This document shows, one piece after another, positions 5,764-32,609 of a DNA stretch of 34,948 nt (position 1 is its first letter; every line of letters begins with the position of its first letter). Location: the NCBI RefSeq assembly GCF_028287845.1, contig NZ_JAQBOW010000012.1, positions 1-34,948 on the forward strand. Direction: 5' to 3'. The translations under genes were made by a program, and so were the position numbers. The DNA is from Mucilaginibacter sp. Lineage in GTDB: Bacteria; Bacteroidota; Bacteroidia; Sphingobacteriales; Sphingobacteriaceae. The notes below the pieces were generated by a model. That model was not told where the DNA came from. It was given only the letters and a program-made list of their open reading frames with translations, and did not search any database.

Positions 5764-6756
5764 ATGATATCAGAGTCAAGAAAAAAAGACGGAAAATATT
5801 TAAACCCCATACCAACAGACGAAGCTGGTTTTGACAAGATGATACCCATTATGCGGGCCTATGCTACCAACAAGGCCGAGGTGGTACCACATAAAAACCT
5901 GGGGCCTTTTAAAACTGATACTTCCATTTTTACAACGCCGCCAAAAAGCGGCCTGCGCATAACCTGGGTGGGGCACTCCAGCTTATTAATAGAAATTGAC
6001 GGGCGAACCATTTTAACCGACCCGGTTTGGAGCCAGCGGGTATCTTTTGTGCAATGGATGGGACCAAAGCGTTTTTTTAGGCCGCCTATAGCTTTGAGTG
6101 ATTTGCCCCCATTGGATGCCATCATTGTATCTCATGACCATTATGACCACTTGGATAAAGAAACCATTAAGTTTTTTGCGGGTACCGATATACCGTTCTA
6201 TTGCTCACTAGGCGTTGGACAGCATTTGGAGAAATTTGGCATCGTAAAAAATTACATTACCGAAATGGATTGGGGTGATAGTGTAATGATAAATCATGAT
6301 TGTGTGATAACCGCTGCACCGGCAAGGCATTTTTCGGGCAGGGGGATATTTAGACGTAATGAAACTTTGTGGTCGTCATTTATCATAAAGGGCAAAAAGC
6401 ACAATATATTTTTTGGGGCCGATTCGGGATACTTCCCGGGGTTTAAAGAAATAGGAGAGTTATATGGCCCATTTGACCTAACCATATTAGAAATTGGCGC
6501 CTATGGCGAGTACTGGCCCGATATACACATGGGGCCTGATAATGCATCAAACGCCCACGTGGCTTTAAAAGGCAAATTAATGATGCCGATACATTGGGGC
6601 ACCTTTAACCTGGCGCTGCATGATTGGTTTGAGCCTATTGAAAAACTGCAACAATATGCTGCCGATAAAAAGATAGAACTATTTGTACCCGAACCTGGCA
6701 AGCCAACCGAAGTTACGGGGGCGTATAATTCTGGTTGGTGGAAACCATATTTATAG
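5764..6756 (+). CDS. MBL-fold metallo-hydrolase (NAPE-PLD/UlaG-like)
   Basis: This metallo-beta-lactamase-fold hydrolase has about 330 residues. The sequence WVGHSSLLIEIDGRTILTDP marks the start of the fold. The metal-binding motif SHDHYDHLD gives His124, His126, Asp128 and His129, followed by further ligands in AARHFSGRG, GADSGYF and MPIHWGTFNL. This pattern is that of the N-acyl-phosphatidylethanolamine phospholipase D / L-ascorbate-6-phosphate lactonase branch. In bacteria the substrate is usually unknown. No signal peptide or lipobox is convincing, so a cytoplasmic location is likely. ATG 5764 is chosen because the residues upstream of it are atypical and begin from a TTG. Its stop abuts the heptad repeat at 6755. 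Confidence 0.88.
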   Translation: MISESRKKDGKYLNPIPTDEAGFDKMIPIMRAYATNKAEVVPHKNLGPFKTDTSIFTTPPKSGLRITWVGHSSLLIEIDGRTILTDPVWSQRVSFVQWMGPKRFFRPPIALSDLPPLDAIIVSHDHYDHLDKETIKFFAGTDIPFYCSLGVGQHLEKFGIVKNYITEMDWGDSVMINHDCVITAAPARHFSGRGIFRRNETLWSSFIIKGKKHNIFFGADSGYFPGFKEIGELYGPFDLTILEIGAYGEYWPDIHMGPDNASNAHVALKGKLMMPIHWGTFNLALHDWFEPIEKLQQYAADKKIELFVPEPGKPTEVTGAYNSGWWKPYL

Positions 6757-6827
6757 TTTGCAGCAGGTAGAGAACAGTTTGCAGTTAAAATTTACTGCCA
6801 ACTGTTCTCTGAAAACTGTTAACTGCT
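6755..6827. repeat. heptad repeat pair forming a hairpin between convergent genes
   Basis: Nine heptamers in strict 7-bp register occupy the gap. On the left are AGTTTGC, AGCAGGT, AGAGAAC, AGTTTGC, AGTTAAA (6755-6789). On the right are AACTGTT, CTCTGAA, AACTGTT, AACTGCT (6800-6827), the complementary orientation. The two arms fold into a long stem at 6769-6810 whose outer 11 bp are perfect. The array touches the stop codons of both flanking genes and may serve as a bidirectional terminator. The same 7-bp design recurs at seven other loci in the window. Confidence 0.75.
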
Positions 6828-8562
6828 ATAACACTTCCTTCAAATGCTTATAATTTGCTTTAACGGTATCCAGCACTTCGTCCATTCTGCCATTTAATAC
6901 CAGTTTGGTCATGGATAATGCCATGCCTTTTACCTGTTCAAACTCAATTTTTGGCGGCATGGCTAAGGCATTGGGATCGGTCATGATATTTATTAATACA
7001 GGACCTTTATGTTGCAAGGCTTCCTGCAATGCTTGTTTAACATTATCAGGCTCGGTCACTGTAATTCCTTTTATGCCCATAGCTTGTGCCACTAAAGCAA
7101 AATCAGGGTTAACCATATCGGTTTGCCAGTCGGGCAGGCCGGCAACTTCCATTTCAAGCTTTACCATACCTAATGACCGGTTATTAAATAAGATGATCTT
7201 AACCGGTAATTTATATTGAACTATAGTAGCCAAATCGCCTAAAAGCATAGATAAGCCCCCATCGCCACACATAGCTATTACCTGCCTGTTGGGGCACGTT
7301 AATGCCGCGCCAATAGCCATAGGCATAGCATTAGCCATGGAACCATGATTAAAAGAACCTAACAGCTCACGTTTGCCGGTGGCGTTAATATATCGCGCTC
7401 CCCATACGCACGACATGCCAGTGTCAACCGTAAATATGGCGTCATCAGCAGCTAGCTCATCCAATATACTGGCAACCTTTTCGGGATGAATATTATCGGT
7501 TTCCCCGCCATCATTCACATAGCCTTGCATCTGTTTTTTCACCTCGGCATAAAACTCCAATTGCTCTTTTAAAAAGCTATCGTCCTTTTTTTGAGCGACC
7601 AATGGCAACAAAGCTGTTAATGTATCTTTTATATTACCACATAAACCCATATCCACTTTAGCACGGCGGCCCAAACGCTCGGATTTAATATCCACCTGTA
7701 CAATTTTGCACTTTGGTGGCATAAACTGGGCATAAGGGAAATCGGTACCCAGCAGGATCAGCAGGTCGCATTCATGCATACTATGAAATGCCGATGGCAA
7801 GCCCAGCAAGCCGGTCATGCCAACCTCATTAGGGTTGTCATATTGGATACTCATTTTACCTTTGAAAGAATAGCCTACCGGTGCGTTTAGCTTATTGGAT
7901 AGATTTACTACCTCATCGTGCGAATCCGCTGCACCTATCCCGCAAAAAACAACTATCTTTTTATGCTCATCTATTAATTGAGCCAATTGTTTCAAATCAG
8001 TGGCTGAAGGTCTGACCTCGGGAACAGGATTATAATTTTGTGTAGAAGACACTCCTTCTTCTGCATTCATTTTGGTGAGGTCGCCGGGCAGGCCTATTAC
8101 TGATACCCCTTTTTTATTCAAGGCATACTGTATGCCTGCCTGCAGCATACGCGGAAATTGAGCCGGCGTGGTCGCTATTTGGTTATAATGGCTGCAATCG
8201 TCAAAAAGCTTGATGGTATTGGTTTCCTGGAAATAGTCTGTACCAAATTCCATACTCATAACGGTTGATGCGATGGCAATTACAGGCGCCCCGGCTTTAT
8301 GGGCATCATACAATCCGTTAATTAAATGTACGTGACCGGGGCCGCTGCTGCCAGCGCAACAGGCAAACCCCGACAGCTGTGCCTCGGCACTTGCTGCGAA
8401 TGCTCCGGCTTCTTCGTGGCGTACATGTATCCATTGTATACTGCCTTCGCGCCTTACCGCGTCGTTCACCTCGTTCAAACTATCGCCGGTTACGGCGTAT
8501 ATTCTTTTTATGCCATTGTTAACCAGCATTTCTACCAGTTGGTCGGCTACGTTCTTTACCAT
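6826..8562 (-). CDS. poxB: thiamine-diphosphate-dependent pyruvate oxidase/dehydrogenase, PoxB-like
   Basis: This 578-residue member of the acetolactate synthase/pyruvate oxidase family probably oxidises pyruvate to acetate and CO2 using thiamine diphosphate and FAD. The Pyr domain opens with GIKRIYAVTGDSLNEVNDAV and contains the catalytic glutamate in VRHEEAGAFAASAEAQLSG. The central domain carries KIVVFCGIGAADSHDEVVNL. The C-terminal PP domain has the metal/cofactor motif GDGGLSMLLGDLAT ending in FNNRSLGMVK. These match ubiquinone-dependent PoxB more closely than acetolactate synthases. The C-terminal amphipathic tail resembles a membrane-binding segment, but that is inference. ATG 8562 fits the family N-terminus better than the upstream TTG at 8592. 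The gene lies downstream of ispG on the same strand, separated by a repeat-containing gap. Confidence 0.88.
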   Translation of the reverse strand: MVKNVADQLVEMLVNNGIKRIYAVTGDSLNEVNDAVRREGSIQWIHVRHEEAGAFAASAEAQLSGFACCAGSSGPGHVHLINGLYDAHKAGAPVIAIASTVMSMEFGTDYFQETNTIKLFDDCSHYNQIATTPAQFPRMLQAGIQYALNKKGVSVIGLPGDLTKMNAEEGVSSTQNYNPVPEVRPSATDLKQLAQLIDEHKKIVVFCGIGAADSHDEVVNLSNKLNAPVGYSFKGKMSIQYDNPNEVGMTGLLGLPSAFHSMHECDLLILLGTDFPYAQFMPPKCKIVQVDIKSERLGRRAKVDMGLCGNIKDTLTALLPLVAQKKDDSFLKEQLEFYAEVKKQMQGYVNDGGETDNIHPEKVASILDELAADDAIFTVDTGMSCVWGARYINATGKRELLGSFNHGSMANAMPMAIGAALTCPNRQVIAMCGDGGLSMLLGDLATIVQYKLPVKIILFNNRSLGMVKLEMEVAGLPDWQTDMVNPDFALVAQAMGIKGITVTEPDNVKQALQEALQHKGPVLINIMTDPNALAMPPKIEFEQVKGMALSMTKLVLNGRMDEVLDTVKANYKHLKEVL

Positions 8563-8630
8563 ATTACATACTTGCTTTAAAACTTTAACCAACCAACTGT
8601 GTGTGAGTTTTAAAATTTGTAAATAAGGGC

Positions 8631-8665
8631 AAAGATCAGAGATTAGTTATTAAAGATCAGGGGAA
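8631..8665. repeat. degenerate heptad array between ispG and poxB
   Basis: Five consecutive heptamers AAAGATC, AGAGATT, AGTTATT, AAAGATC, AGGGGAA lie in exact 7-bp register, the first and fourth identical. It sits in the 142-base gap upstream of poxB. It shares the design, and partly the GATTAG-like wording, of the arrays at 16053 and 32491. Confidence 0.6.
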
Positions 8666-8704
8666 TAATTTTAAAGGCTAAATTTAACAGACAAGTATTA
8701 ATCT

Positions 8705-10723
8705 TTAAACCGACGGCTCTATCCAGTTACCATCCTCGCGGATAATACCTATCAATTCGTCAAGCGCGTTGGCGGCGCTGATGTTTTTCTTTACCGCTTC
8801 CTTGCCGCGATAAAGCGTGATCTTATCGGTGCCTGATCCTACATAGCCGTAATCAGCATCGGCCATTTCGCCGGGGCCATTTACTATACAACCCATGATG
8901 CCAATTTTCAATCCTTTTAAATGACTGGTGCGGCTGCGGATCATCTGCGTAGTAACCATCAAATCAAACAAAGTGCGCCCACAACTTGGGCACGATATAT
9001 ATTCTGTTTTTGATATGCGCGATCGCGTTGCCTGTAAAATGCCAAACGCGGTGGAAGTTATTGTTTTAATGTCGATTGAAGGCACGTCTATCCATATACC
9101 ATCGCCAAAACCGTCAATTAGTAAAGCGCCCAGATCTGTAGCGGCTTGTAGTTGTAAGTTCTGAGTCTTGAGTTCTGAGTCTTGAGTTTCGAAACTGTAA
9201 CTTCTTTTGATGATAACCGGCACTTCCAGCTCCAACTCTTCCATTTTAAAGAAGAACAAGCGCTGATCAGCCATGCCATGCAGGGCATCAGTCTCCAAAA
9301 CAAAAACCAGTGAATTGCTGAAAGGCAACAAACCAAACTCTTCCGAATCAATATCCGCAGGTTTTAACCGCACCAGGTTCAATGCTGATGAACGATCGTT
9401 GGCATTTACGTACTCACTCAAGGTAAATACAGGGTGGCAATTAACTTTATGGGTTAGTTTTTGCCAGGTTGGGTAATTATATAGTTGCTTTAAGTTAGCG
9501 GGCAGGTTAAATGATGGCAATTCATCACCCAAAAACACAAAATCAACCGACTGATCGGCCATATTATATTTATCTAACAACGGCGAATAGATATAACCGG
9601 CATCATTAAGCACCGAAGCATCTTTCAGATTAGCTTCCGACAGATCAACCACCACGCGCGGCACCATGTGCCCCCCTATAAAAGCGTTGGCTTCGTAAGT
9701 GTGGCGCTTTTTGTATTCGTAGGGACTGTAAGAAGAAGGTAAAAGGTTAAAGGTTAAAGGCGAAAGGTTTGTATTGTCCTTAATATCACCTTTAACCTTT
9801 TGCCTTTCAGCCTTTAACCTCTCCGCATAGCGGTTCACCAAAGCAATAGCTACCGGTGCCTCTGCTTCGGGTTCTTCGGTAAGAGATACACGGACGGTAT
9901 CGCCCAGGCCATCTTCTAATAAAGTACCTATCCCAACGGCTGATTTGATGCGGCCATCTTCGCCGTCGCCGGCTTCGGTAACGCCTAAATGCAGCGGATA
10001 GTTCATGCCCTCGGCTACCATGGTTTCAACCAATAAACGGTAGGCCTGTACCATAACCTGGGGGTTGCTTGATTTCATGGAGATAACCAAATTATAATAA
10101 TTCAGCGTTTCGCACATCCGCATAAATTCCATCGCCGACTCGACCATGCCCTGCGGGGTATCGCCATAACGGCTCATTATCCTATCGCTTAACGACCCAT
10201 GATTAGTACCAATGCGCATGGCGGTACCATATTCCTTGCATATTTTTACCAGTGGCGCAAATTTTTGGTATATGCGCTCCAGTTCGCCCTGGTATTGCAG
10301 GTCGGTATAATCTATCTGGTCGAATTTCTTTTTATCGGCATAATTGCCCGGGTTAACACGTACTTTTTCGACAATGCGGGCGGCGACTTCGGCAGCGTTG
10401 GGGGTAAAGTGGATATCGGCAACCAATGGTACTGTATAACCCCGCTGGCGCAATTGTTTTTTTATCTCCGCTAAATTCTGTGCCTCTTTAATACTTGGCG
10501 CGGTAATGCGCACATATTCGCAGCCCGCATTGATCATCCGGATAGATTGCTCTACCGTACCTATAGTGTCCATGGTGTCGGTAGTGGTCATGCTTTGTAT
10601 GCGGATGGGGTTATTACCCCCCATGGGCACATCGCCGATAAAAACTTCGCGCGTTACAAAACGCGAATATTCTGTTAGTGAGTTACAATATCGGCCGGGA
10701 AGTAATATAGTGGGGGTGTGCAT
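8705..10723 (-). CDS. ispG: 4-hydroxy-3-methylbut-2-enyl diphosphate synthase, large three-domain form
   Basis: IspG (GcpE) reduces MEcPP to HMBPP with a [4Fe-4S] cluster, the penultimate step of the MEP isoprenoid pathway. At 672 residues this is the long form with an extra central domain, as in Bacteroidota, Chlamydiae and plants. The N-terminal TIM barrel starts VTREVFIGDVPMGGNNPIRI and has PLVADIHFTP and KVRVNPGNYADKK. The C-terminal cluster domain has ISCPSCGRTLFDL and GIMGCIVNGPGEMADADYGY, with the cluster cysteines and catalytic glutamate intact. Two linkers, about residues 301-330 (between the barrel and the extra domain) and 513-522, are encoded by heptad repeats and look inserted in frame. 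ATG 10723 matches the family start. A TAnnTTTG box lies 17 bases upstream, and a toxin gene ends 33 bases upstream. Confidence 0.96.
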   Translation of the reverse strand: MHTPTILLPGRYCNSLTEYSRFVTREVFIGDVPMGGNNPIRIQSMTTTDTMDTIGTVEQSIRMINAGCEYVRITAPSIKEAQNLAEIKKQLRQRGYTVPLVADIHFTPNAAEVAARIVEKVRVNPGNYADKKKFDQIDYTDLQYQGELERIYQKFAPLVKICKEYGTAMRIGTNHGSLSDRIMSRYGDTPQGMVESAMEFMRMCETLNYYNLVISMKSSNPQVMVQAYRLLVETMVAEGMNYPLHLGVTEAGDGEDGRIKSAVGIGTLLEDGLGDTVRVSLTEEPEAEAPVAIALVNRYAERLKAERQKVKGDIKDNTNLSPLTFNLLPSSYSPYEYKKRHTYEANAFIGGHMVPRVVVDLSEANLKDASVLNDAGYIYSPLLDKYNMADQSVDFVFLGDELPSFNLPANLKQLYNYPTWQKLTHKVNCHPVFTLSEYVNANDRSSALNLVRLKPADIDSEEFGLLPFSNSLVFVLETDALHGMADQRLFFFKMEELELEVPVIIKRSYSFETQDSELKTQNLQLQAATDLGALLIDGFGDGIWIDVPSIDIKTITSTAFGILQATRSRISKTEYISCPSCGRTLFDLMVTTQMIRSRTSHLKGLKIGIMGCIVNGPGEMADADYGYVGSGTDKITLYRGKEAVKKNISAANALDELIGIIREDGNWIEPSV
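9159..9186. repeat. perfect 14-bp x 2 heptad array inside ispG
   Basis: Four heptamers TTCTGAG, TCTTGAG, TTCTGAG, TCTTGAG run in register, that is two exact copies of a 14-mer. They encode the polar segment TQDSELKTQN of IspG, at a place where the family normally has a short loop between KRSY and LQLQAA. Confidence 0.85.
9738..9819. repeat. inverted pair of heptad arrays inside ispG
   Basis: The left arm is GGTAAAA, GGTTAAA, GGTTAAA, GGCGAAA (9738-9765). The right arm, in the opposite orientation, is TTTAACC, TTTTGCC, TTTCAGCC, TTTAACC (9791-9819, one unit of 8). The arms are imperfectly complementary and could form a hairpin. On the minus strand they encode a linker of about 28 residues that includes LSPLTFNLLPSS, between the IspG barrel and its extra domain. 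Confidence 0.8.
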
Positions 10724-10740
10724 GCATAAGAAATTTAATG

Positions 10741-10748
10741 CAAAGATA
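10741..10748 (-). promoter_or_regulatory. -10 box (TATCTTTG) of ispG
   Basis: On the minus strand TATCTTTG matches TAnnTTTG exactly and ends 17 bases before the ispG ATG. It lies between the toxin stop codon and ispG, so ispG can be transcribed independently of the toxin-antitoxin pair. The -33 region would fall inside the toxin gene, and no clear TTG is seen there. Confidence 0.55.
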
Positions 10749-10755
10749 AGGAATA

Positions 10756-11013
10756 CTAATAATGTCCTTTTAACGATAGTATAAAGACTACGTCATCATT
10801 TACTTCATAAACCAATCTGTGTTCTTTATTAATTCGCCTTGACCACGCGCCTGAAAGGTTATATTTTAAAGGCTCGGGCTGACCAATACCTTTGTAAGGA
10901 TCATCACTAATAGCTCTAAGCAATTCTTTTATCTTTTTTATAATTTGCTGATTTCCGCTTGTTTTTAAATAATCAAGGTCAGCATCAGCTTTCTTAGTAA
11001 ATTTTATGATCAC
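10756..11013 (-). CDS. YoeB/RelE-family toxin of a toxin-antitoxin pair
   Basis: This 85-residue protein has the RelE/ParE fold typical of YoeB (Txe) mRNA interferases, which cleave mRNA at the ribosomal A site. It begins IIKFTKKADADLDYLKTSGN and contains PYKGIGQPEPLKYNLSGAWS, then RRINKEHRLVYEV and a C-terminal LSLKGHY, where the family has its catalytic histidine and terminal aromatic residue. Length and motif order are normal, so it is probably intact. It starts with GTG, overlapping the antitoxin stop by four bases (GTGA), which implies translational coupling. It ends 33 bases upstream of ispG on the same strand. Confidence 0.88.
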   Translation of the reverse strand: MIIKFTKKADADLDYLKTSGNQQIIKKIKELLRAISDDPYKGIGQPEPLKYNLSGAWSRRINKEHRLVYEVNDDVVFILSLKGHY

Positions 11014-11201: not shown

Positions 11202-11205
11202 ACTA

Positions 11206-11213
11206 CAAATTTA
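11206..11213 (-). promoter_or_regulatory. -10 box (TAAATTTG) of the toxin-antitoxin operon
   Basis: On the minus strand TAAATTTG matches TAnnTTTG, with only four bases between its last G and the antitoxin ATG. Transcription starts usually lie about 4-7 bases after this box, so initiation at or next to the A of the ATG is predicted. No palindromic operator is evident in the flanking sequence. Confidence 0.6.
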
Positions 11214-11367
11214 AGACTTTTTCCTTACATCACTATAATCATATGCCCTTCCCTCTTCAACATCTTATAATCCGTTTTTGAACTTCTTTGACATCTTTAT
11301 ATAAGCTAATATACGAAATATGTTTTCGCTATAAATTTTTCGATAGTAATTATTTACCTTTTAAAAG

Positions 11368-11375: not shown

Positions 11376-11383
11376 CCTCCACG

Positions 11384-13004: not shown

Positions 13005-13049
13005 GATTGTAATTTTTATGTTGATAAAGCTATTGCATTTATCTATTTG

Positions 13050-14571: not shown

Positions 14572-15303
14572 ATGTTTTATAGTTTAGGCAAATACATACT
14601 CTTATTACGTTTAAGTTTCCGCAGGCCCGAAAAATTCAGTGTTTACTGGGCCGAAGTTATGCGCGAGATGGTTTCCATCGGTATTGGCTCTTTGGGCATT
14701 ATCGCTATTATATCTCTTTTTATTGGCGCGGCAACCACTATACAGGTAGCTTTTCAATTAAGCAGCCCGCTGGTGCCGCTTAGTATTGCGGGGAAAATAG
14801 CGCGCGATTCTACCATACTGGAGTTTAGTCCCACCATATCAGCATTAGTACTGGCCGGTCGTGTTGGCTCAAGCATTGCCTCGCAAATAGGCACCATGCG
14901 GGTTACCGAGCAAATTGACGCGCTGGAAATTATGGGGGTAAATGCTCCCGGCTATTTAATATCGCCCAAAATCATTGCCAGCATGACCATGGTGCCCTTA
15001 CTGGTCATCACATCAATAACCCTGGGTATAACCGGTGGTTATATAGCTTGTGTAGTATCCGGTGACATTACTCCTGCCGATTACTTAGCCGGCGTCCGGG
15101 ATGGTTTTGACGGATTGACCATACAGGTTGCATTGGTTAAAGCAATAGTATTTGGCTTTCTAATTTCTTCCATTTGTGCTTATCAGGGTTTTTATACATC
15201 TGGCGGCGCGTTAGAGGTTGGGCAATCATCAACCAAAGGCGTGGTATACAGCTGTGTAATGATTCTGTTTGCCGATTTGGTGATAACGCGTATTATGCTA
15301 TGA
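14572..15303 (+). CDS. mlaE: MlaE-family lipid ABC transporter permease
   Basis: This 243-residue integral inner-membrane permease belongs to the MlaE/TTG2B family that moves phospholipids between inner membrane and periplasm. Family features are visible along its length: the N-terminal amphipathic segment, SLFIGAATTIQVAFQLSSPL, SPTISALVLAGRVGSSIASQ, the conserved EQIDALEIMGVNAPGYLISP cytoplasmic motif, then hydrophobic helices VPLLVITSITLGITGGYIAC and AIVFGFLISSICAYQGFYTS with the typical GGALEVGQSSTKGVV ending. It overlaps the following ATPase gene by four bases (ATGA), so the two are translationally coupled. The usual third component, an MCE-domain MlaD protein, does not follow. Confidence 0.92.
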   Translation: MFYSLGKYILLLRLSFRRPEKFSVYWAEVMREMVSIGIGSLGIIAIISLFIGAATTIQVAFQLSSPLVPLSIAGKIARDSTILEFSPTISALVLAGRVGSSIASQIGTMRVTEQIDALEIMGVNAPGYLISPKIIASMTMVPLLVITSITLGITGGYIACVVSGDITPADYLAGVRDGFDGLTIQVALVKAIVFGFLISSICAYQGFYTSGGALEVGQSSTKGVVYSCVMILFADLVITRIML

Positions 15304-16052
15304 TTGAAGTTAAAAACATTCATAAAACATTTGGCGAGAACGACGTGCTCAATGGCATATCGGCAGCATTTAAAAAAGGTAAAAACAATTTAATTATTGG
15401 CGGGTCGGGCTCTGGTAAAACCACTTTGCTAAAATGTATTGTGGGCCTGCATGAACCAACCAAGGGCAATGTTTTTTTTGATAACCAGAATTTTACCGAC
15501 ATGAGCTTTGAGCAACGTGTGCCCATACGCACCCATATTGGTATGCTGTTTCAAAACTCTGCCCTGTTCGACTCGATGACGGTGGAAGAGAACATTATGT
15601 TCCCCTTGAACCTGTTTACTAAACGAACCCATGCCGAAAAATTAGAAAGAGCCAATTTTTGCCTGGAGCGGGTTAACCTGGCCGGCAAGAACGCACTGTA
15701 CCCGGCCGAACTATCGGGCGGGATGAAAAAGCGGGTAGGGATTGCACGCGCCATATCTATGCAGCCCAAGTATTTATTTGTGGATGAACCCAACTCGGGC
15801 CTCGACCCTAAAACGTCTATCCTGATAGATGACCTTATAAATGACCTCACCGAAGAATATCAAATGACCACCGTTATTGTTACCCACGATATGAACTCGG
15901 TTATGGGTATTGGTGATCATATTATCTTTTTGCACAACGGCGAAAAATGGTGGGAAGGCAGCAATAAAGAAATTGCCAAAACCGACAACAAAGAATTAAA
16001 CGAGTTTGTATTTGCCAGTAAATTTATGCAAGCAGCGAAAGCTAAATTATAG
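15300..16052 (+). CDS. mlaF: MlaF-family ABC transporter ATP-binding protein
   Basis: This 250-residue cytoplasmic ATPase powers the MlaE permease. Walker A is IIGGSGSGKTTL (residues 33-44), the Q-loop is GMLFQNSALFDSMTV, the ABC signature is ELSGGMKKRVGIARA, Walker B is YLFVDEPNSGLDP, and the H-loop is VIVTHDM. The SGGMKKR wording and NSGLDP instead of TSGLDP are typical of the Mla/TTG2A branch. The ATG at 15300 overlaps the mlaE stop as ATGA and fits the family start IEVKNIHKTFGENDVLNGIS; longer frames upstream lie inside mlaE. No MCE gene is seen in the 326-base gap after it, which instead contains repeats. Confidence 0.93.
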   Translation: MIEVKNIHKTFGENDVLNGISAAFKKGKNNLIIGGSGSGKTTLLKCIVGLHEPTKGNVFFDNQNFTDMSFEQRVPIRTHIGMLFQNSALFDSMTVEENIMFPLNLFTKRTHAEKLERANFCLERVNLAGKNALYPAELSGGMKKRVGIARAISMQPKYLFVDEPNSGLDPKTSILIDDLINDLTEEYQMTTVIVTHDMNSVMGIGDHIIFLHNGEKWWEGSNKEIAKTDNKELNEFVFASKFMQAAKAKL

Positions 16053-16080
16053 TGATTAGAGGTTGGTGATTAGAGATTAG
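16053..16080. repeat. heptad array directly after mlaF
   Basis: Four heptamers TGATTAG, AGGTTGG, TGATTAG, AGATTAG run in exact 7-bp register starting two bases after the mlaF stop codon. The wording is close to the array at 32491-32522 (complementary or shifted GATTAG/GGTTAAA units). Confidence 0.75.
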
Positions 16081-16112
16081 ACTGCCGATTATTGATGCCT
16101 TTGTTAGTGTTT

Positions 16113-16377: not shown

Positions 16378-17217
16378 TTATTTCTTCGCCAAAGTATATT
16401 CTCCCCAAAAATCGGTAGGTGTAGTTCGTATTCCATCGAGTCTGGCAGACACGGCAAGAATCCTTACAACTCCCGGGGCTGTAGCCGAGGCACCATTGTC
16501 AGGAGTAGGTGGAGTTATCGGACGACCTCCGTTAACCCTTATGTGATATGCAAATTTTATAGCATCATTTGCTGAAAACCTCAAATATTTCAATCCAACA
16601 GATATTTCAAAAGTGTAAATCTTTCTTCTATCAAATAGTCCAGCAGCTTTAATACCATCAATATTATACACAGATAACAAAGTATCTAAATCTGGTATTC
16701 CTTTAATCCTTATCCATTTACAATTTATTTCTAATTTTTTATTGTTATATAGCATTGTAGAATCAGCAGCCCTTGCAGATGTATCTGGTACAAATCCTTT
16801 CCTGTTTCTTAAGTTAAACATTAGATGATTTTTTCTATCCGCCACAGGATAAGTAATACTTATATTATTTTTATCTTTTTTATCGGTTGATTTTTGAATG
16901 GTCAACGTAACACCACCATCAACTATCTTATTAATAATATCCGGGTCTACCGCCTGTACTGTAAGATAAAGGTTTTCGTCATCATTAGCCATTCTATAGA
17001 ATATATCCGTAGCATGATTATAAGCCTGGAATTGATCACCCCACTCCGTTAACTTACCATCAATTTTAATATTAGCCGGAGCGCGCAAGCTTATTTGCTG
17101 CACATTGGGTAACTTCTGCGCATTTGCTATAAAAGCGATAACAAGAAACAATACTGATAAAACAATCTTAGTTTTTATTTGATATATTATTTTTTTGCTA
17201 AAGTATACTCGCTCCAA
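16378..17217 (-). CDS. secreted CBM9-like protein, second (downstream) paralogue, unusual start
   Basis: This secreted or periplasmic protein has about 270 residues. After a signal sequence ending FLVIAFIANAQ comes a CBM9/DOMON-like domain with LPNVQQISLRAPANIKIDGK, then LTEWGDQFQAYNHATDIFYR and NDDENLYLTVQAVDPDI. It shares its N-terminal region and the ending EYTLAKK with the upstream gene, so the two arose by tandem duplication, but the middle has diverged. No ATG or GTG lies in frame near the signal peptide. The only conventional option is TTG at 17217, which lies 31 bases inside the upstream gene and gives a long basic n-region. Function unknown; carbohydrate or cell-wall binding is inferred from the domain type only. 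Confidence 0.72.
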   Translation of the reverse strand: MERVYFSKKIIYQIKTKIVLSVLFLVIAFIANAQKLPNVQQISLRAPANIKIDGKLTEWGDQFQAYNHATDIFYRMANDDENLYLTVQAVDPDIINKIVDGGVTLTIQKSTDKKDKNNISITYPVADRKNHLMFNLRNRKGFVPDTSARAADSTMLYNNKKLEINCKWIRIKGIPDLDTLLSVYNIDGIKAAGLFDRRKIYTFEISVGLKYLRFSANDAIKFAYHIRVNGGRPITPPTPDNGASATAPGVVRILAVSARLDGIRTTPTDFWGEYTLAKK

Positions 17218-18005
17218 AAATCTGTATTGCTCATTAATAATTCCATATCTGATGACTTTCTGGTGGTCAAACCAATTGGCACATCAGTAACAGTTGCAGC
17301 TTCACCGGTTTTAGACTTCACAACTTTGGCATTTATGGACATTCCCCTTATCATCAAATTATAAAAAAATTTCGGCTGATTATTTGTAGCATTATTTAAG
17401 TATTTTAAAGGTATGGTCAATTCAAAATTTAACGCACCTGTCCTATCAAAAAGCAGAGCTGTTTTAATACCATAATTATTATAAACAGATATTACATTGT
17501 CAATTCCTTTTATTCCCCCCACTACCATCTCTTTTGACTCGTTAGTCAATTCTTTATTCATAATTGACCATAAAGAGTCGGTTTGTTTAGATTTAGTTTT
17601 ACTATCTGCATATTCCATAAACTGCATATAAGCAGAACTTATGCCTAAGCGCCCTTTATTAGTTATAAGTGGGCCAACTCCTGCACCGTGCTCAAACTTA
17701 TTTTTAGCAGGCGTTATACTTAGTACAATACCACCGCCAATTATTTTTTTTGCTACAGCTTCGTCTTTCGCCTGTACAATCAGGTACAGATTGTTATCAT
17801 CATTAGCTATTGTATAAAAGGCATCAATACTATGGTTAAATGCCTGGAACTGGTCGCCCCAATCCGTCGTTTTGCCATCAATTTTAATACTAATTGGAGC
17901 GCGCAAGCTTATCTGCTGCACATTAGGCAATTTCTGTGCATTTGCTATGACAGCAATTGCACTAAACAAAGCCAACAAGAGCGGTTTCTTATTAATTATT
18001 CTCAT
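17187..18005 (-). CDS. secreted CBM9-like protein, first (upstream) paralogue
   Basis: This 272-residue protein has a clear signal peptide (KKPLLLALFSAIAVIANA, cleavage before Q). A beta-rich domain resembling carbohydrate-binding module 9 / DOMON follows: SLRAPISIKIDGKTTDWGDQ, FNHSIDAFYTIANDDNNLYL and IVQAKDEAV. The C-terminal half, with NVISVYNNYGIKTALLFDR and LNFELTIPLKYL, is also shared with the downstream copy, so the whole protein is duplicated. No catalytic domain is attached. It may be a substrate-binding or scaffold protein, but that is inference. ATG 18005 is directly upstream of the signal peptide. A perfect 11-bp inverted repeat lies 20 bases upstream. Confidence 0.8.
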   Translation of the reverse strand: MRIINKKPLLLALFSAIAVIANAQKLPNVQQISLRAPISIKIDGKTTDWGDQFQAFNHSIDAFYTIANDDNNLYLIVQAKDEAVAKKIIGGGIVLSITPAKNKFEHGAGVGPLITNKGRLGISSAYMQFMEYADSKTKSKQTDSLWSIMNKELTNESKEMVVGGIKGIDNVISVYNNYGIKTALLFDRTGALNFELTIPLKYLNNATNNQPKFFYNLMIRGMSINAKVVKSKTGEAATVTDVPIGLTTRKSSDMELLMSNTDFWSEYTLAKK

Positions 18006-18115: not shown

Positions 18116-18133
18116 TCGCAAACGTATCTTGCT

Positions 18134-18161
18134 ACTTGATACTACATACTTGATACTATAA
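18134..18161. repeat. heptad array in the 5' leader of the methyltransferase gene
   Basis: ACTTGAT, ACTACAT, ACTTGAT, ACTATAA run in exact register, the first and third identical. The array ends one base before the ATG at 18163 and so occupies the ribosome-binding region. Confidence 0.75.
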
Positions 18162-27793: not shown

Positions 27794-27827
27794 TAGTAAC
27801 AAAAAAATTTAGATGGATAAAGATAGG

Positions 27828-27869
27828 GATATGTGCAGATATGCAGATGTGTGGATGTGCAGATTTTAT
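27828..27869. repeat. octad array upstream of parC
   Basis: Units starting with GAT repeat mostly every 8 bases: GATATGTGCA (10), GATATGCA, GATGTGTG, GATGTGCA, GATTTTAT. It lies in the 199-base gap between the YdeI-like gene and parC, 35 bases upstream of the parC start. It follows the same design as the heptad arrays but with 8-bp spacing. The rest of this gap shows nothing recognisable. Confidence 0.6.
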
Positions 27870-27992
27870 GCACATAATGCAACCGTTTTGTTATTTCGCC
27901 TCAAACTTCAATGTATTTCAAAGTTAAAAAAATGAAATTGTAATTATAACGATATTCGACAACAAACAAAATCCTAAAAACGCAAACTATAA

Positions 27993-28499
27993 TTACTCCT
28001 TTCTCATCTCCCTTATCATCACATTGTAGGACCATTTACGAAGCATCGCATTTACGGTATTTACTATGCGCTTATTGCGCGTTTCGCTGGTCTTGGCTTG
28101 TTCTATCCATTTAAGAAAATATTCCCGGTGTGATTTTGCAAGGCTATTAAAAAATTCCAAAGCTTCAGGTTCAAAATCAAAACACTCCTGCAAATCATCG
28201 GGCACGTTAAATTTATAATCTTTATCTTCTTCCAGCTTTACCTGCAGCATAGCGCCTGCATTTTTATGTATGCCTTTTCTTATATCTGCCTTAAGCGCCA
28301 TAATAAAATTGCCCTCGCCCATGGGCATTAATGCCATACCTTTTACCGTCATACCATCTAGCATACCACGTACCCTGAAGGATTTTTTGCTACCCGGTTT
28401 TAATTGCTGCGCTAAATCTGCAGGAATTTCAATATAGCTCCACCCGGTTTTTTCGCCCTGTTCTGCAAACTGTAAAATGATGGTATTGAACTCAATCAT
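27993..28499 (-). CDS. YdeI/OmpD-associated-family protein with DUF1905-like domain
   Basis: This 168-residue cytoplasmic protein has two parts. The N-terminal DUF1905-like barrel has GWSYIEIPADLAQQLKPGSK, SFRVRGMLDGMTVKGMALMP and MALKADIRKGIHKNAGAMLQ. The C-terminal YdeI/OmdA-type helical domain has DDLQECFDFEPEALEFFNSL followed by KSHREYFLKWIEQAKTSETR, where the HR-x-Y-x-x-WI and ET-R-R-I..-A/V motif is diagnostic. Members have been linked to bacteriocin or peptide resistance in Enterobacteria, but their mechanism is unknown and I do not assign one here. ATG 28499 is preferred to the TTG at 28517. Confidence 0.85.
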   Translation of the reverse strand: MIEFNTIILQFAEQGEKTGWSYIEIPADLAQQLKPGSKKSFRVRGMLDGMTVKGMALMPMGEGNFIMALKADIRKGIHKNAGAMLQVKLEEDKDYKFNVPDDLQECFDFEPEALEFFNSLAKSHREYFLKWIEQAKTSETRNKRIVNTVNAMLRKWSYNVMIREMRKE

Positions 28500-28651
28500 G
28501 CTATAAATATCACTCAAATATGCTTATGGTAAAAATAGGGCAAATGTTAAGTTTTAGTTAAGTGATTAATAAATATATTATTTTTTGTAACGTTTCGAAT
28601 GCTGGTGCTGTCCTATGGATATAAAATAATTAACCAAAAAACTCTAATATT

Positions 28652-29080
28652 ATGAAAACTTTAAAATCAATTATGCTTGGTTTAGCATTACTAGTTGCTG
28701 GCACAGTTGCCAACGCTGCAAATAAACCCACTCCGGCTGCATTAACAAAAAATGAAGTCTTAAATATTTATATAAATGCAGTAGTACACGGTAAAACAGA
28801 GGGCCTCAACGAAATTTTGGATGATAACATTCAATACATTATGACCCGCGGCAGCAATGTAACTACTTTAAACAAAAAACGCATCCTTGCATCTTTTAAA
28901 GCATCAGAAAACATTGAGCAGGACTGTAAATATATTACCACAATAATTGAAGATACCAGAGAGGGAATGATTGTAAAGCTAGAACTGCAATATGGTGGTT
29001 ATGTACGCACTAACTTGATCACTATTTCACTTAACCGTCCGGACTGGAAGATCACTAAGATCGAAAACGTACCTTCTTAA
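28652..29080 (+). CDS. secreted NTF2-like (lumazine-binding-type) small protein
   Basis: This 142-residue protein has a signal peptide (LKSIMLGLALLVAGTVANAA). A cystatin-like NTF2 fold follows, inferred from the pattern helix-helix-strands: NEVLNIYINAVVHGKTEGLN, EILDDNIQYIMTRGSNVTTL, KRILASFKASENIEQDCKY and paired strands ending LNRPDWKITKIENVPS. Such proteins are frequent in Sphingobacteriaceae as small periplasmic proteins with no known enzyme activity. It is the only plus-strand gene between parE and parC and has its own terminator, so it is probably a later insertion or an independent unit. Confidence 0.7.
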   Translation: MKTLKSIMLGLALLVAGTVANAANKPTPAALTKNEVLNIYINAVVHGKTEGLNEILDDNIQYIMTRGSNVTTLNKKRILASFKASENIEQDCKYITTIIEDTREGMIVKLELQYGGYVRTNLITISLNRPDWKITKIENVPS

Positions 29081-29110
29081 ATTTAGTTTAGTTTTATTTA
29101 TATGGCTGGG

Positions 29111-29136
29111 GGCTTCCGTTTTGCGGAGGCCTTTTT
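29111..29136 (+). terminator. rho-independent terminator of the NTF2-like gene
   Basis: GGCTTCCG and CGGAGGCC pair around a TTTTG loop (one G-U pair) and are followed by TTTTT, 30 bases after the stop codon. It precedes the convergent SGNH hydrolase end by a few bases. Confidence 0.85.
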
Positions 29137-29143
29137 ATTTAAG

Positions 29144-29806
29144 TTATTTTATATAATCCTGCAAAATAACCTGCCATCTATCATAACCCTTATTATTTAA
29201 GTGAAGCATATCTTTTTTATACAGGGATGAATCGGGCATCATGGTTTGCGGGTTTAACACCGTAGTGGCTACATCAATAAAATAGGTTTTGGGTTTTGTA
29301 CTGATGTAGGCCTTTATCAACTTATTAGCTGTTATAAAATCAGCCGAGTATTTTAACCTGCTCGGGCTTTCTTTGATAGATAAATAATAAAATTCAACAT
29401 CCGGCAATTGTTGCCTTATCATATCGTATATTTTGGTGAATAAATCGAACACAGATTGAGGCGTTTTACCGCTGACAGCAATATCATTCTCGCCGGCATA
29501 TAAAAATATTTTACGCGGATGATATGGAAACAATACGTAAGGCGTATAATAAGCTACCCACTGTGACAACTCTGAGCCCCCAACCCCGCGCTGAATTATT
29601 GGCGCACCACTAAAACGCTGCTGCAAATCACTCCATAACCGTATAGATGAAGCACCTATAAACAGTATGCCGTTGGGCTTTGGAAAATTCAGGCTATCCT
29701 GGTGCTTGTAGGCACGTATCTCCGCATCGTAAGGGAAACCCGTTTGCGCGTACAGTTTTGTACAAAAAACCAAAACAGTTAAAAGCAGCGTTAATTTTAA
29801 TTTCAT
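29144..29806 (-). CDS. secreted SGNH/GDSL hydrolase
   Basis: This 220-residue exported esterase-like hydrolase has a signal peptide ending LVFCTKLYAQ. The four SGNH blocks are in order: ILFIGASSIRLW with the nucleophile Ser53/54, RGVGGSELSQW (glycine oxyanion residue), FLYAGENDIA (Asn107), and DMLHLNNKGYDRW with Asp199 and His202. This subgroup resembles lipases and acetyl-xylan or platelet-activating-factor acetylhydrolase-like esterases; the substrate is not determinable. It starts five bases after the cytidine deaminase stop, so the two are likely co-transcribed although functionally unrelated. Confidence 0.87.
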   Translation of the reverse strand: MKLKLTLLLTVLVFCTKLYAQTGFPYDAEIRAYKHQDSLNFPKPNGILFIGASSIRLWSDLQQRFSGAPIIQRGVGGSELSQWVAYYTPYVLFPYHPRKIFLYAGENDIAVSGKTPQSVFDLFTKIYDMIRQQLPDVEFYYLSIKESPSRLKYSADFITANKLIKAYISTKPKTYFIDVATTVLNPQTMMPDSSLYKKDMLHLNNKGYDRWQVILQDYIK

Positions 29807-29811
29807 AATCT

Positions 29812-30297
29812 TTAAGTTAATCTGTCTTCAAAAAATAAAAACGGTAAAAAACTTTCTATACCAAGGGTTACCCAAACAGGGCCGTCTTTACAAAATAGTA
29901 TTGTTTTTATAGGCTTATTTTGTTTCTTCTCATACTCGGCTATTACCTGCAGGCAAGAGCCGCATGAAGTTACCGGTTTATTCAGGATAAACTCATCTGT
30001 ATGTGCTGTTACGGCCATACTTTCTATTGGGTCATCAGGATGATTGGCACCCCAATAAAACAGGGCAACCCGCTCTGCACATAAACCTGATGGATAAGCT
30101 ACATTTTCCTGGTTACTGCCATGTATTATTTTGCCGCTTTGCAATTGTAATGCTGCGCCTACCCTAAACTTTGAATAGGGGGAATGCGAGTTTGCCATCG
30201 CTTTAACCGCTTCATTGCATAAGCTTTGGTCGGTTGTATCAAGCTCCTCTACGGAAGCAAATTCCTGGAAATTTATTTTTATTTCGTGGTTAGTCAT
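29812..30297 (-). CDS. cdd: cytidine deaminase
   Basis: Cytidine deaminase converts cytidine and deoxycytidine to uridine forms in pyrimidine salvage. It has 161 residues, the small homotetrameric type. Key motifs are AMANSHSPYSKFRVGAAL, GSNQENVAYPSGLCAERVAL with the zinc ligand Cys73 and proton-shuttling Glu75, and TSCGSCLQVIAEY with zinc ligands Cys112 and Cys115. The usual P-C-G-x-C-R-Q is changed here to S-C-G-S-C-L-Q, while all metal ligands remain, so activity is still likely. The N-terminus has an extra about 20 residues before the common start. It lies downstream of parE, behind a strong terminator, and just upstream of the SGNH hydrolase. Confidence 0.92.
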   Translation of the reverse strand: MTNHEIKINFQEFASVEELDTTDQSLCNEAVKAMANSHSPYSKFRVGAALQLQSGKIIHGSNQENVAYPSGLCAERVALFYWGANHPDDPIESMAVTAHTDEFILNKPVTSCGSCLQVIAEYEKKQNKPIKTILFCKDGPVWVTLGIESFLPFLFFEDRLT

Positions 30298-30352
30298 TTA
30301 GCCTCATCTGCCTCTTTAGGAGAGGGTTCTTTTTTAAGTTTATAAAAAGCAA

Positions 30353-30382
30353 TTCCCCCGTCCTTTAAACGAAGCGGGGGAA
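30353..30382 (-). terminator. rho-independent terminator downstream of parE
   Basis: Read on the minus strand, TTCCCCCG and CGGGGGAA form an 8-bp GC-rich stem around a 14-base loop, followed by TTGCTTTTT. It ends parE transcription and insulates the cdd gene that starts 55 bases further on. Confidence 0.85.
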
Positions 30383-30492
30383 ACAAGATAAGTATTATTT
30401 ATAATAAGTAACTACAATAGGCAATACTCTTTTTTATTCATTACCTTTTAATGCAAGGATCCTGGCAATCCTCAAATCTTAAAAATCAAAGC

Positions 30493-32382
30493 CTAACTCG
30501 CTATCGGCAACTCATCCGCGTCATCAACAATAGTTGGATTAACCGATTCGTCATCTTTCTCTACCCGCAGGTTACCAATGATATGTTGCTGCCTTGCGGG
30601 GGTGTTTTTACCCATAAAATATTCCAGCAGGCCTTTAATATTTGCATCTTTTAATATAACCGGGTCAAGACGGATATCCTTACCTATAAACAGCCCAAAC
30701 TCATCCGGTGATATTTCACCAAGCCCCTTAAAGCGGGTAATTTCAGGCTTAACTCCCAATTTAGCAATGGCATTTCTTCGCTCCTCATCGCTGTAGCAAT
30801 AAATAGTTTCCTTTTTATTACGCACGCGGAATAGCGGGGTTTGCAAAATAAACACATGTCCGGCTTTTACAAGGTCAGGGAAAAATTGCAAAAAGAACGT
30901 CATCAGCAATAAACGGATGTGCATACCATCCACATCGGCATCGGTAGCTATTACTATATTATTGTAGCGCAATGCATCAAGGCCATCCTCAATATTAAGG
31001 GCGTGTTGCAGCAGGTTAAATTCCTCGTTCTCATACACTACCTTTTTGGTTAGTCCGTAGCAATTAAGCGGTTTACCTTTTAAGCTAAATACGGCTTGCG
31101 TTTGCACATCGCGCGATTTGGTGATAGATCCGCTGGCCGAGTCCCCTTCGGTAATAAACAGTGTTGTATCCTGCTTACGCTCATGGGTATCATCAAAATG
31201 CAGCTTGCAATCGCGCAGTTTACGGTTGTGCAGCGATGCTTTTTTGGCGCGGTCATTCGCCAGTTTTTTAATACCAGCTATATCCTTACGCTCACGCTCT
31301 GATTGCATAATGCGTTTTAATAGCGCATCGGCGGCTGAAGGGTTTTTGTGCAGGTAATTATCTAATTCTTTCTTTACAAAATCGCCAATAAAAGTGCGGA
31401 CAGACGGCCCTTCCGGACCAATGTTTTGTGAACCCAGTTTGGTTTTTGTTTGCGACTCGAACACCGGCTCCTGTACTTTTATAGCGATTGCCGATACAAT
31501 AGATGCCCGTACATCAGAAGCATCAAATTCTTTTTTGTAAAATTCACGAATGGTTTTTACTACCGCTTCGCGAAAAGCCGCCTGGTGCGTACCGCCCTGT
31601 GTGGTATGCTGCCCATTTACAAATGAGTAATATTCTTCGCCATATTGCTGCCCGTGGGTCATGGCAATTTCTATATCCTCGCCTTTTAGGTGGATGATAG
31701 GATAACGCAGTGTTTCAACATCTGTATTCTTGGTAAGCAGGTCATACAGCCCGCGCTCCGAGAAATATTTTTGATTGTTAAAATTAATGGTCAGCCCAGA
31801 GTTTAGGAACACATAGTTCCAGATCATGCTATCTATAAACTCCGGAATAAAATGGTAATTCCTGAAGATGGTTTCATCAGGATAAAAGTTTATGGCAGTG
31901 CCATTGCGTTGTGTGGTTTCTTTTTCCGGCTCGTCTTTTATTAATTCGCCTTTTTCAAATTCGGCAATTTTGGTACGGCCGTCCCGGTATGATTGTACAA
32001 CGAATGACGTTGAAAGCGCATTAACCGCCTTGGTACCTACACCATTTAGACCTACAGATTTTTGAAACGCCTTGCTATCATATTTACCACCGGTATTAAT
32101 TTTTGAAACACAATCTATCACCTTACCCAATGGAATGCCGCGGCCATAATCGCGCACGGTAACTTTATGGTCACTTATATTGATCTCGATAGTTTTGCCC
32201 GAGCCCATTACAAACTCATCTATCGAGTTATCTACTATTTCTTTCAGTAATACATATATCCCGTCATCATAAGCCGAGCCATCGCCCAACTTGCCAATGT
32301 ACATCCCGGGGCGCAGGCGGATATGTTCTTTCCAATCAAGCGACCGTATACTATCTTCACTATAATTTACTGCTTCTGCCAT
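30493..32382 (-). CDS. parE: DNA topoisomerase IV subunit B
   Basis: ParE is the ATPase subunit of topoisomerase IV. At 629 residues, it has the GHKL ATP-binding motifs [24 protein letters not shown] and [15 protein letters not shown], then the transducer region with [20 protein letters not shown]. The TOPRIM domain has [14 protein letters not shown] and [15 protein letters not shown]. The C-terminal region has [19 protein letters not shown], typical of type IIA subunit B. The shorter length and the companion parC downstream favour ParE over GyrB. Between parE and parC lie cdd, the SGNH hydrolase, the NTF2-like and the YdeI-like genes. A -10 box lies 47 bases upstream. Confidence 0.95.
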
Positions 32383-32429
32383 GTTTTATACGTGTATTTT
32401 AAATATGGAGACAGGGAGCCTCCTTAAAG

Positions 32430-32437
32430 CAAAAATA
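32430..32437 (-). promoter_or_regulatory. -10 box (TATTTTTG) of parE
   Basis: On the minus strand TATTTTTG matches TAnnTTTG, with 47 bases from its last base to the ATG of parE. No good -33 is seen at the normal spacing. Confidence 0.45.
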
Positions 32438-32490
32438 AAGTTTAGTACCCGAACTTCTAATTCAAATCTGTTAACTTATCAACATTGTTG

Positions 32491-32609
32491 TTGAAGATTG
32501 AAGATTAGAGGTTAAAGATTAGTTGAATGTCTGATTTTTAGAATTTCGTACTAATCTTTAATTAACTAATCTTCAATCTTTAATTAACTAATCTTTATTA
32601 ACCAATCTT
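32491..32609. repeat. inverted pair of heptad arrays upstream of parE
   Basis: The left arm has TTGAAGA, TTGAAGA, TTAGAGG, TTAAAGA, TTAG in register (32491-32522). After about 28 bases the right arm (about 32550-32609) carries the complementary wording, with repeated AATCTTTAATTAACT and TAATCTTCAATC units of 7 and 8 bases. The two arms could form a large imperfect hairpin. It fills most of the 234-base gap between parE and the secreted unknown gene and ends eight bases from the latter's stop. Confidence 0.75.

Follow-up and report, generated by a model that had tools for sequence, protein, structure and literature searches.

The short tandemly repeated repetitive (STRR) sequences of cyanobacteria are heptanucleotide repeats, and arrays of the same period have been described in other bacteria. 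MacGregor reported repeats of the word TAACTGA, found in Beggiatoaceae and cyanobacteria as well as in five Bacteroidetes, and cites Mrazek 2007 for heptamers being the most frequent class of long simple repeat in the majority of genomes studied and for the idea that 7 nt may suit the polymerase (PMC4679880). Rehm et al. described GGGAATC heptads in Xanthomonas, with 70 paired inverted arrays in X. campestris pv. campestris (Xcc), the G-rich arrays lying on the sense strand near stops and on the antisense strand before starts (PMC4692102). A further system is the intervening sequence (IVS) of 23S rRNA genes, which in Coxiella has terminal inverted repeats and an S23 open reading frame (ORF), with two or three tandem GACAGAT heptamers plus a degenerate one directly 5′ of the ORF, their number depending on the strain (PMC4990558). 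ORFs for such intervening-sequence proteins (IVPs; PF05635, S23-type four-helix-bundle proteins) also occur in rRNA insertions of bacteria of the candidate phyla radiation (CPR), and PF05635, 'four helix bundle' or 'S23' proteins have been called functionally uncharacterised (PMC11270868). Here, we focus on degenerate heptad arrays in a Mucilaginibacter contig (NZ_JAQBOW010000012.1), which is analysed whole at 34,948 bp (the window) and belongs to a 3.74-Mb draft genome with many same-genus relatives. Sequence comparison suggests that these arrays are probably ORF-less or solo-arm members of an IVS-like family of mobile elements linked to IVP genes, because they share a two-armed form and, mostly, their words with the repeats that frame IVP genes.

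Arrays were defined by a four-copy period-7 scan (identity 0.60) with 20 order-3 Markov shuffles as the null, which took over from a strict lag scan of all periods. The window holds nine degenerate arrays against 1.5 expected (30 matches over 20 shuffles), and 493 kb of other contigs of the same genome hold 78 against 19 in the shuffle; the 7-bp periodicity proposed in a preliminary description of this DNA thus exceeds that of shuffled sequence. Eight of the nine matches (6794, 8630, 9146, 9729, 9784, 16048, 18126 and 32489) fall on the seven heptad loci listed there, all of which are borne out, and the ninth, at 16716, is low-complexity. At periods 5 and 6 the same scan gave 228 and 158 arrays in the own sample, with likewise large shuffle values of 206 and 67, while a reversed-pattern control carries no information, GATTAGA read backwards being the identical circular word. 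The strict lag scan gave a weaker signal than the four-copy scan: four arrays at lag 7 and six at lag 14 in the own sample including the window, 10 in 16 genomes of the class, two in G010 and none in G011 or G013, where events are too sparse for any claim. The heptad loci and the host gene that contains some of them are as follows.

6757..6828, no strand: two-armed heptad palindrome, words AGTTTGC and AACTGTT, occupying the gap between two convergent genes.
8629..8676, no strand: weak array of heptads, AAAGATC/AGATTAG, in the interval from the ispG stop to the adjoining gene.
8705..10723, minus strand: ispG, host gene, with a frame open across two heptad inserts (NCBIfam ispG_gcpE / PRK02048).
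9157..9188, minus strand: in-frame heptad insert at ispG site 2, TTGAGTC/TTGAGTT (TRF, orthologue alignment).
9736..9769, minus strand: 3′ arm, on the coding strand, of the two-armed in-frame insert at ispG site 1, word AAAGGTT (TRF, hairpin fold).
9788..9820, minus strand: 5′ arm, on the coding strand, of the same two-armed insert at ispG site 1 (TRF, hairpin fold).
16050..16081, plus strand: 5′-type arm, GATTAGA, which starts where an LptB-like ABC ATPase gene (15174-16052) ends, at its stop codon.
18128..18161, plus strand: 3′-type arm, ACTTGAT, which is the GTATCAA word, immediately 5′ of the ATG of the 18163 gene.
32491..32522, minus strand: 3′ arm of a two-armed element, words AAGATTG/GATTAG, in the gap 3′ of the 32617-33231 gene (fold z -6.4).
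32550..32611, minus strand: 5′ arm of the same element, 32491-32611 (TRF, hairpin fold).

At a score of 30, TRF reported period 7 at 9736-9769, 9788-9820, 16050-16081, 18128-18157 and 32491-32506, periods 7 and 14 at 9157-9188, period 21 at 8631-8676, and periods 22 and 14 in the arm 32553-32611; the 6755-6827 array was undetected at this score. The 6755 and 8631 arrays are the weakest of the set, since TRF period-7 calls are absent there and lag-7 identity is low (13 and 14 of 21). The facing arms anticipated at three loci can indeed form hairpins, and folding lies far below that of shuffles at ispG (z -6.1), 32485-32616 (z -6.4) and 6757-6828 (z -5.7).

IVP genes were found in all 31 same-genus genomes searched, with 2-15 in each and seven in the own genome, and in none of 14 well-known control genomes. 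By inspection, complementary arms of heptads or octads frame all seven own genes, of which one has a broken reading frame. Arms were scored in two ways: by lag-7 identity, which had to reach 15 of 21, and by complementarity between the 130 nt upstream of the start codon and the 150 nt downstream of the stop codon, which had to reach 14. The 55 same-genus loci scored include six of the own genes (L259, missed by the nine-protein panel, is outside the counts and was inspected separately), and the 11 plasmid loci are ten cyanobacterial and one from Gemmatimonadota. Complementary arms frame 49 of the 55 same-genus, 52 of 80 Bacteroidota and 7 of 11 plasmid IVP loci, against 7 of 600 control ORFs; lag-7 periodicity is present at 40/55, 54/80 and 9/11, against 42/600, and periodicity at lag 7 or 8 at 49/55, 55/80 and 10/11. 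A later set of 20 IVP loci gave complementary arms in 19 and lag 7 or 8 in 16. The surroundings are coding, with ORFs of at least 90 aa on both sides within 400 nt at 156 of 166 IVP loci. One further locus, L379 (G021), is flanked on each side by repeats of a 9-base unit, AAAGGTTGT; because of a broken frame it was left out of the word and period tests.

The arms also have a fixed polarity. Skew is towards G in the 5′ arm and towards C in the 3′ arm at 59 of 64 Bacteroidota and all eight plasmid two-armed loci, or at 52/64 and 8/8 when scored by purine content. The IVP gene is co-directional with both neighbours at 131 of 147 loci (225 of 461 control triplets), which, given shared sites, are not 147 independent cases. 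On plasmids only 5/9 IVP genes are co-directional, yet all eight two-armed loci keep the polarity, which therefore follows the IVP gene rather than host transcription. IVP genes of the genus, of Bacteroidota at large and of cyanobacterial plasmids are thus mostly framed by heptad arms, or by octad arms in some subfamilies, the 5′ arm being rich in G and the 3′ arm, its complement, rich in C.

The word and the period of the arms go with the IVP subfamily, even at unrelated sites. For 7039 pairs of loci at non-homologous sites (those whose outer flanks gave no tblastx match to each other; 18 of 146 loci with short or broken frames excluded), arm word and IVP identity are correlated with a Mantel r of 0.463 (0/2000 permutations), and mean arm 6-mer cosine rises from 0.10 at protein identities below 0.3 to 0.37-0.43 at identities above 0.7. 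Thinning to 59 representatives leaves r at 0.395 (0/5000 permutations). MHNFKELKVW IVPs of the genus have GTATCAA arms and FTDLEVW IVPs have GATTAGA-type words, while octads frame xFKFEKL IVPs (AAGTCCGA, 4/4) and SNRIEDLE IVPs (mostly AATGACC-type). On a tree of 113 IVPs, from which 34 of 147 whole-frame loci were omitted as having no clear period, the period label of 7 or 8 changes seven times against a shuffled mean of 16 (0/500). Ten of the 20 later loci have an IVP of at least 70% identity at a non-homologous site, the other 10 having no such neighbour; the neighbour's arms rank first in six and 2, 5, 29 and 54 in the remainder, out of about 126, although L426/L428 and L436/L438 look like shared-site pairs, which makes about eight cases rather than 10.

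The window arrays draw on the same vocabulary. They were compared with the 128 whole-frame IVP loci minus the plasmid ones, plus the 20 later loci, and for six of the eight window segments all three top-scoring IVP arms belong to a single subfamily or to its neighbours, with cosines reaching 0.64 for the 9730 segment and 0.61 for the 18125 segment. The arm 9736..9769 matches L428, L426 and L372 (0.64, 0.60 and 0.40), all of the DYKKLD subfamily, and its AAAGGTT word may be set beside the AAAGGTA arms of the own-genome IVP L253; the surrounding DNA, 9700-9860, has one match on a Nostoc plasmid, 32 bases at 93.8%. For 18128..18161 the top three arms are all MHNFKELKVW (0.60-0.61), and all are FTDLEVW for 8629..8676 (0.25-0.29), 16050..16081 (0.28-0.42) and 32491..32522 (0.17-0.30); the own IVP locus L258 has AAGATTG arms as well, and is outside the comparison on account of a broken frame. 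The best arm for 32550..32611 is L274, again FTDLEVW (0.43), the next two coming from another subfamily (0.27 and 0.20). For 6757..6828 the top arms are L432, L427 and L425 (0.40, 0.34 and 0.21), the best belonging to the YKDLLxYKK subfamily (0.40; L425 being the third match). L373 had by eye seemed the cognate IVP of the 9157 word; it stood outside the best three in the arm comparison, and the claim was dropped.

Across the genus, 72 ORF-less arrays (the window's included) were compared with a vocabulary that left out lptB-site and plasmid IVP loci. A lag-7 cut of 15 was applied except to the eight window segments, and gaps holding an IVP ORF were skipped. Mean best cosine was 0.279 against 0.156 for column-permuted copies, and 19/72 arrays reached 0.35 against 43/1080 permuted copies; the rank test takes related arrays as independent. 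The 20 further IVP loci then provided some missing words, supplying several seen earlier mainly in ORF-less arrays: CAGTTTG (the 6755 word), TGGACTA, AAAAGTC and GTGAGTGG. Two-armed form is likewise common among the 78 own-sample arrays, of which chance would account for about a quarter and none of which stands beside a PF05635 match: a complementary partner lies within 150 nt of 41 of them, compared with 29/400 random and 12/400 AT-rich segments.

The preliminary description added an octad and a decad version of the arrays, which fared differently.

27828..27869, no strand: octad array ATGTGCAG, upstream of a GyrA/ParC-like gene (TRF; lag-8 17 of 21).
34441..34710, no strand: direct repeats of a decad on either side of a 206-bp element (34485-34690) that ends in inverted repeats and is distinct from the heptad family.

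The octad array is itself sound, and period-8 arms are known at some IVP subfamilies, but an IVP arm of its word was not found. The decad array was rejected as a member of the heptad family, since its repeats flank a separate element of 206 bp that carries terminal inverted repeats of 18 bp and is present in further copies in the own genome. In the stretches examined, two-ended copies of this 206-208-bp element, with terminal repeats CAATGTCATTAAGTTAAG, occur at window 34441-34710, L168:15564-15771 and L177:1445-1651, all three bordered by decad-like repeats, CCTACCTGAC in type and in direct orientation; L162 and L163 each contain one end.

Comparison of orthologous gaps, which the preliminary description had proposed, shows gain, loss and word swap (at the LptB gap, the 32491 gap and the gap before a gene MEVQEIKQ...), with abrupt differences in word between sister species. 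Relatives hold arms of other words, with or without an IVP gene, or an empty gap. Between the LptB-like gene and the 18163 gene, heptads (at least 14 of 21) follow the stop in 18/30 loci and precede the start in 24/30, lags 5, 6 and 8-11 being found in at most 3/30, and the G/C polarity rule is kept in 25/30 and 24/30. In most printed cases the arms, judged by eye, are complementary and enclose a promoter-like TA..TTTG box, resembling the Bacteroidota promoter motif; the words vary between species. In the window two genes (16378-18005) lie within this gap, many relatives having only an arm-promoter-arm gap, and the arms remaining around them differ in word from each other. 3′ of the 6826 gene, none of 30 loci reaches the cut, the own being highest at 13 of 21 and the other 29 at most 11, and the next gene is often different. 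In the 32491 gap, lag 7 is at least 14 in 3/29 loci including the own, each with another word, and 26/29 lie below the cut. Gaps thus differ widely in occupancy, and arrays have been gained and lost within the genus.

Replacement at a single site is plainest in sister genomes G013, G017 and G047, where flanks of 87-90% DNA identity surround the gap before MEVQEIKQ... and within it G013 has a CCCCCTTTAGGGGG palindrome, G017 an IVP element whose arms read AAGAATC, and G047 a palindrome that has a different word and no ORF. A second palindrome family of the CCCCCTTTAGGGGG type is present at L415 and L417-L420, the same gap as L287, where other species hold an IVP element. On cyanobacterial plasmids, IVP genes with heptad arrays lie between cas6 and cas4 of CRISPR operons (L390, L397), namely in Anabaena sp. 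90 and Pseudanabaena galeata; the gap holds four ATTACGA-like units in Pseudanabaena ABRG5-3, only 23 bp in Nostoc UHCC 0302, and a different palindrome in Dolichospermum, whose flanks are 99.2% identical to those of Anabaena 90 (L412:1030-1255, GTAGGTTGGGTT...AACCCAACCTAC). The IVP domain named in a CRISPR-neighbour survey may reflect insertions of this cas6-cas4 type (PMC10910872).

Turnover extends into coding sequence. Among 24 aligned same-genus orthologues of ispG (24/25 same-genus genomes matched; heptads scored at lag-7 of at least 15 of 21), 22 have heptads at site 1 and 12 have them at site 2, in words that vary by species (AAAGGTT, AAAAGTC, GACTCAA, GACCATG, CTCACCA, AACCCAC and others). 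An ispG match was found in 38/41 genomes, with no internal stops among the matches listed; site, period and open frame of the inserts are constant and the word is not. Six orthologues of other families have short linkers, except that L027 and L029 have, by eye, short heptad runs at site 1. Several relatives have in-frame CTCTCC..GGAGAGG palindromes within ispG, related to the CCCCCTTTAGGGGG-like family.

The IVP reading frame is under purifying selection, with dN/dS of about 0.06-0.08 (pairs 75-97% identical; dS saturated in 73/143 pairs), and the protein is therefore used. A fold model of one IVP, L289 (27-sequence alignment, pLDDT 96), matches 2gsc (XCC0516) with a TM score of up to 0.89 and 2rld with up to 0.86, entries that the IVP sequence profile also matches in the PDB (5.8e-32 and 4.6e-10) and that have five chains each. 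The model further matches Avd, the four-helix accessory protein of diversity-generating retroelements (DGRs), at TM 0.80/0.87 (4dwl_D), and chains of the DGR complexes 8ub7/8ub8 at 0.79-0.82. Avd is pentameric and RNA-binding within its complex, and the natural inference from the predicted fold is that the IVP is likely an RNA-binding oligomer. Likeness of PF05635 to Avd has been noted before (PMC10053308). Reverse transcriptase (PF00078) was found in 18 of the 31 same-genus genomes, all of which carry IVPs, and not in the other 13 (two of them less than 65% complete), nor is one annotated beside any of ten annotated plasmid IVP loci; as a constant copying enzyme it is unsupported.

These properties suggest how such elements could arise. 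An IVP oligomer would bind the transcribed heptad hairpin with one repeat unit per protomer, an arrangement that would fix the period and allow the word to co-evolve with the protein. Binding might then permit copying or insertion of the element, or of an ORF-less palindrome of the same word, into permissive places: just after stops, before starts, or in tolerant in-frame linkers such as the two in ispG. Local slippage would add or remove units afterwards, and by analogy with the heptamer variation of the Coxiella IVS it probably still tunes copy number (PMC4990558).

Several observations weigh against this reading. The window has no IVP gene, the seven own-genome matches all lying on other contigs, and many IVP loci elsewhere occupy shared sites, so raw counts are not independent. 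Below the lag-7-or-8 cut are 25/80 Bacteroidota, 6/55 same-genus and 1/11 plasmid IVP loci, and below the complementarity cut 28/80, 6/55 and 4/11. Five of 64 loci violate the polarity rule, the arms of L425 look hexameric, and L436 and L438 have a shifted word despite a 71% identical neighbour. Among ORF-less arrays, 53/72 fall below 0.35 to every IVP arm of the first sample; in the window, 9157 has no good match (best 0.20) and the octad array none (best 0.15). IVP number per Mb is not correlated with array density across 16 genomes of the class (rho 0.21, p 0.44, in samples of at most 20 kb). Foldseek E-values for Avd 4dwl_D and 8ub7/8ub8 are weak, at 0.085 and above. Finally, a target-site duplication was definable at none of the gaps compared (G013/G017/G047 and the cas6-cas4 plasmids); none is claimed, because these sites show element swapped for element and offer no clean empty site of high identity.

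The rival that survives best, though we judge it unlikely, is that arrays pre-exist, whether of host origin or born of slippage, and that IVP genes insert by homing into arrays with the matching word, the arms being the target site. Arrays do outnumber IVP genes (78 in 493 kb, about 19 of them by chance, against seven genome-wide), and in the lptB gap of L230/L232 (the same elements as L265/L267) the IVP gene sits between two direct arms within a larger arm-promoter-arm layout that ORF-less relatives L240, L249 and L250 share in the same word. Homing alone, however, leaves unexplained the many-word complementary arms at IVP-free sites and the tracking of the protein tree by word and period, and the cas6-cas4 gap of Nostoc UHCC 0302 is nearly empty. 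Next, and improbable in our view, the arrays could be host RNA signals, such as terminators or processing or read-through-insulating hairpins, with IVPs as regulators that each control a word-defined regulon. The position of arms directly after stops and before starts, flanking by eye the promoter-like TA..TTTG box in the lptB gap, would suit such a role, as would fixed G/C polarity and stable hairpins; it accords poorly with in-frame copies within ispG, with 26 of the 29 loci of the 32491 gap lying below the heptad cut, and with words and element types swapped at one gap between sister species. Ordinary heptanucleotide repeats, made by replication slippage, point drift, local homogenisation and a polymerase-favoured 7 nt with no element involved, would fit the commonness of heptamers among long simple repeats in most genomes studied (PMC4679880, on Mrazek 2007) and the TRF rows of period 14, 21 and 22, which fit block duplication, but are very improbable in the face of the IVP association, the complementary arms, the strand polarity, and word and period tracking the subfamily. 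The preliminary description's single family by period, STRR-like form and active generating process can accordingly be retained; slippage with drift, offered there as one such process, does not suffice alone or as the main cause, given abrupt word changes between sister species at one gap, words that go with the IVP subfamily framed elsewhere, a period (7 or 8) that shifts with subfamily, and the rarity of heptads in the 32491 gap.

A broader and more tentative proposal, which we hold to be possible rather than probable, is that IVP/S23 proteins are readers of a tandem nucleic-acid code, each subfamily having one 7- or 8-base word and each protomer of an Avd-like pentamer reading one unit, and that they drive palindromic mobile elements independently of reverse transcriptase. 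This single class would then take in 23S rRNA IVSs, together with the heptameric repeats known from cyanobacteria, Xanthomonas and Bacteroidota, as members or as relics. The heptameric repeats of cyanobacteria, Xanthomonas, Beggiatoaceae and some Bacteroidota had no known maker, and are now joined to IVPs by position, word, period and strand polarity. Which nucleic acid an IVP binds, and whether the bound element moves, become testable questions. Should binding bear out a code of one word per subfamily, IVPs would form a naturally occurring collection of small proteins that read repeats sequence-specifically. In genome annotation, inserts of this kind account for odd in-frame linkers, as in ispG, and for unstable intergenic hairpins.

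Among known systems, DGRs share with the elements described here the predicted fold of one modelled IVP, L289, which matches Avd, and differ in that reverse transcriptase is not constant here and the repeats are heptads rather than a template/variable repeat pair. Miniature inverted-repeat transposable elements (MITEs) and Rickettsia palindromic elements are short palindromes with site turnover, sometimes in frame in genes; the copies here, unlike these, lack a constant terminal sequence and have heptad-array arms with a family-specific word. Set against the constant terminal inverted repeats and duplication of MITEs and insertion sequences (ISs), the arms are inverted, the word is variable and a duplication was not definable at the compared gaps. 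With STRR, Xanthomonas GGGAATC, Nostoc GGGGAYT and Beggiatoaceae TAACTGA repeats, the arrays share period 7 and a mostly intergenic position, and the polarity of the GGGAATC arrays is that of the arms here. Like STRRs and long simple sequence repeats (LSSRs), the window arrays are tandem 7-nt units above chance; they are not near-perfect iterations of a single genome-wide word, being degenerate, multi-word and IVP-linked, where the published accounts focus on one word per genome and, in their accessible parts, give no protein partner. The preliminary description likened the arrays to cyanobacterial repeats in form, and the same kind of arms at cyanobacterial-plasmid IVP genes takes the likeness beyond form. 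In the accessible portions of the open-licence literature, a link of heptad arrays to IVP genes was not found outside the Coxiella IVS. As in the 23S rRNA IVSs of Leptospira and Coxiella, an S23/IVP frame lies between complementary terminal arms in the ORF-bearing elements. Arms that can pair into a stem are seen both in the window and in ORF-bearing relatives, and heptamers next to the IVP ORF, as in Coxiella, in ORF-bearing relatives only. The window arrays have neither an IVP/S23 frame nor an rRNA location (no Rfam match in the window; one host gene is ispG). In contrast to these IVSs, the elements here are intergenic or inside a protein gene, several word families occur per genome, ORF-less two-armed copies are abundant, and word and period follow the IVP subfamily. 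Lying outside rRNA and without an ORF, the window arrays are therefore not filed as 23S rRNA IVSs, but as IVS-arm-like sequences within a wider set of IVP-linked palindromes.

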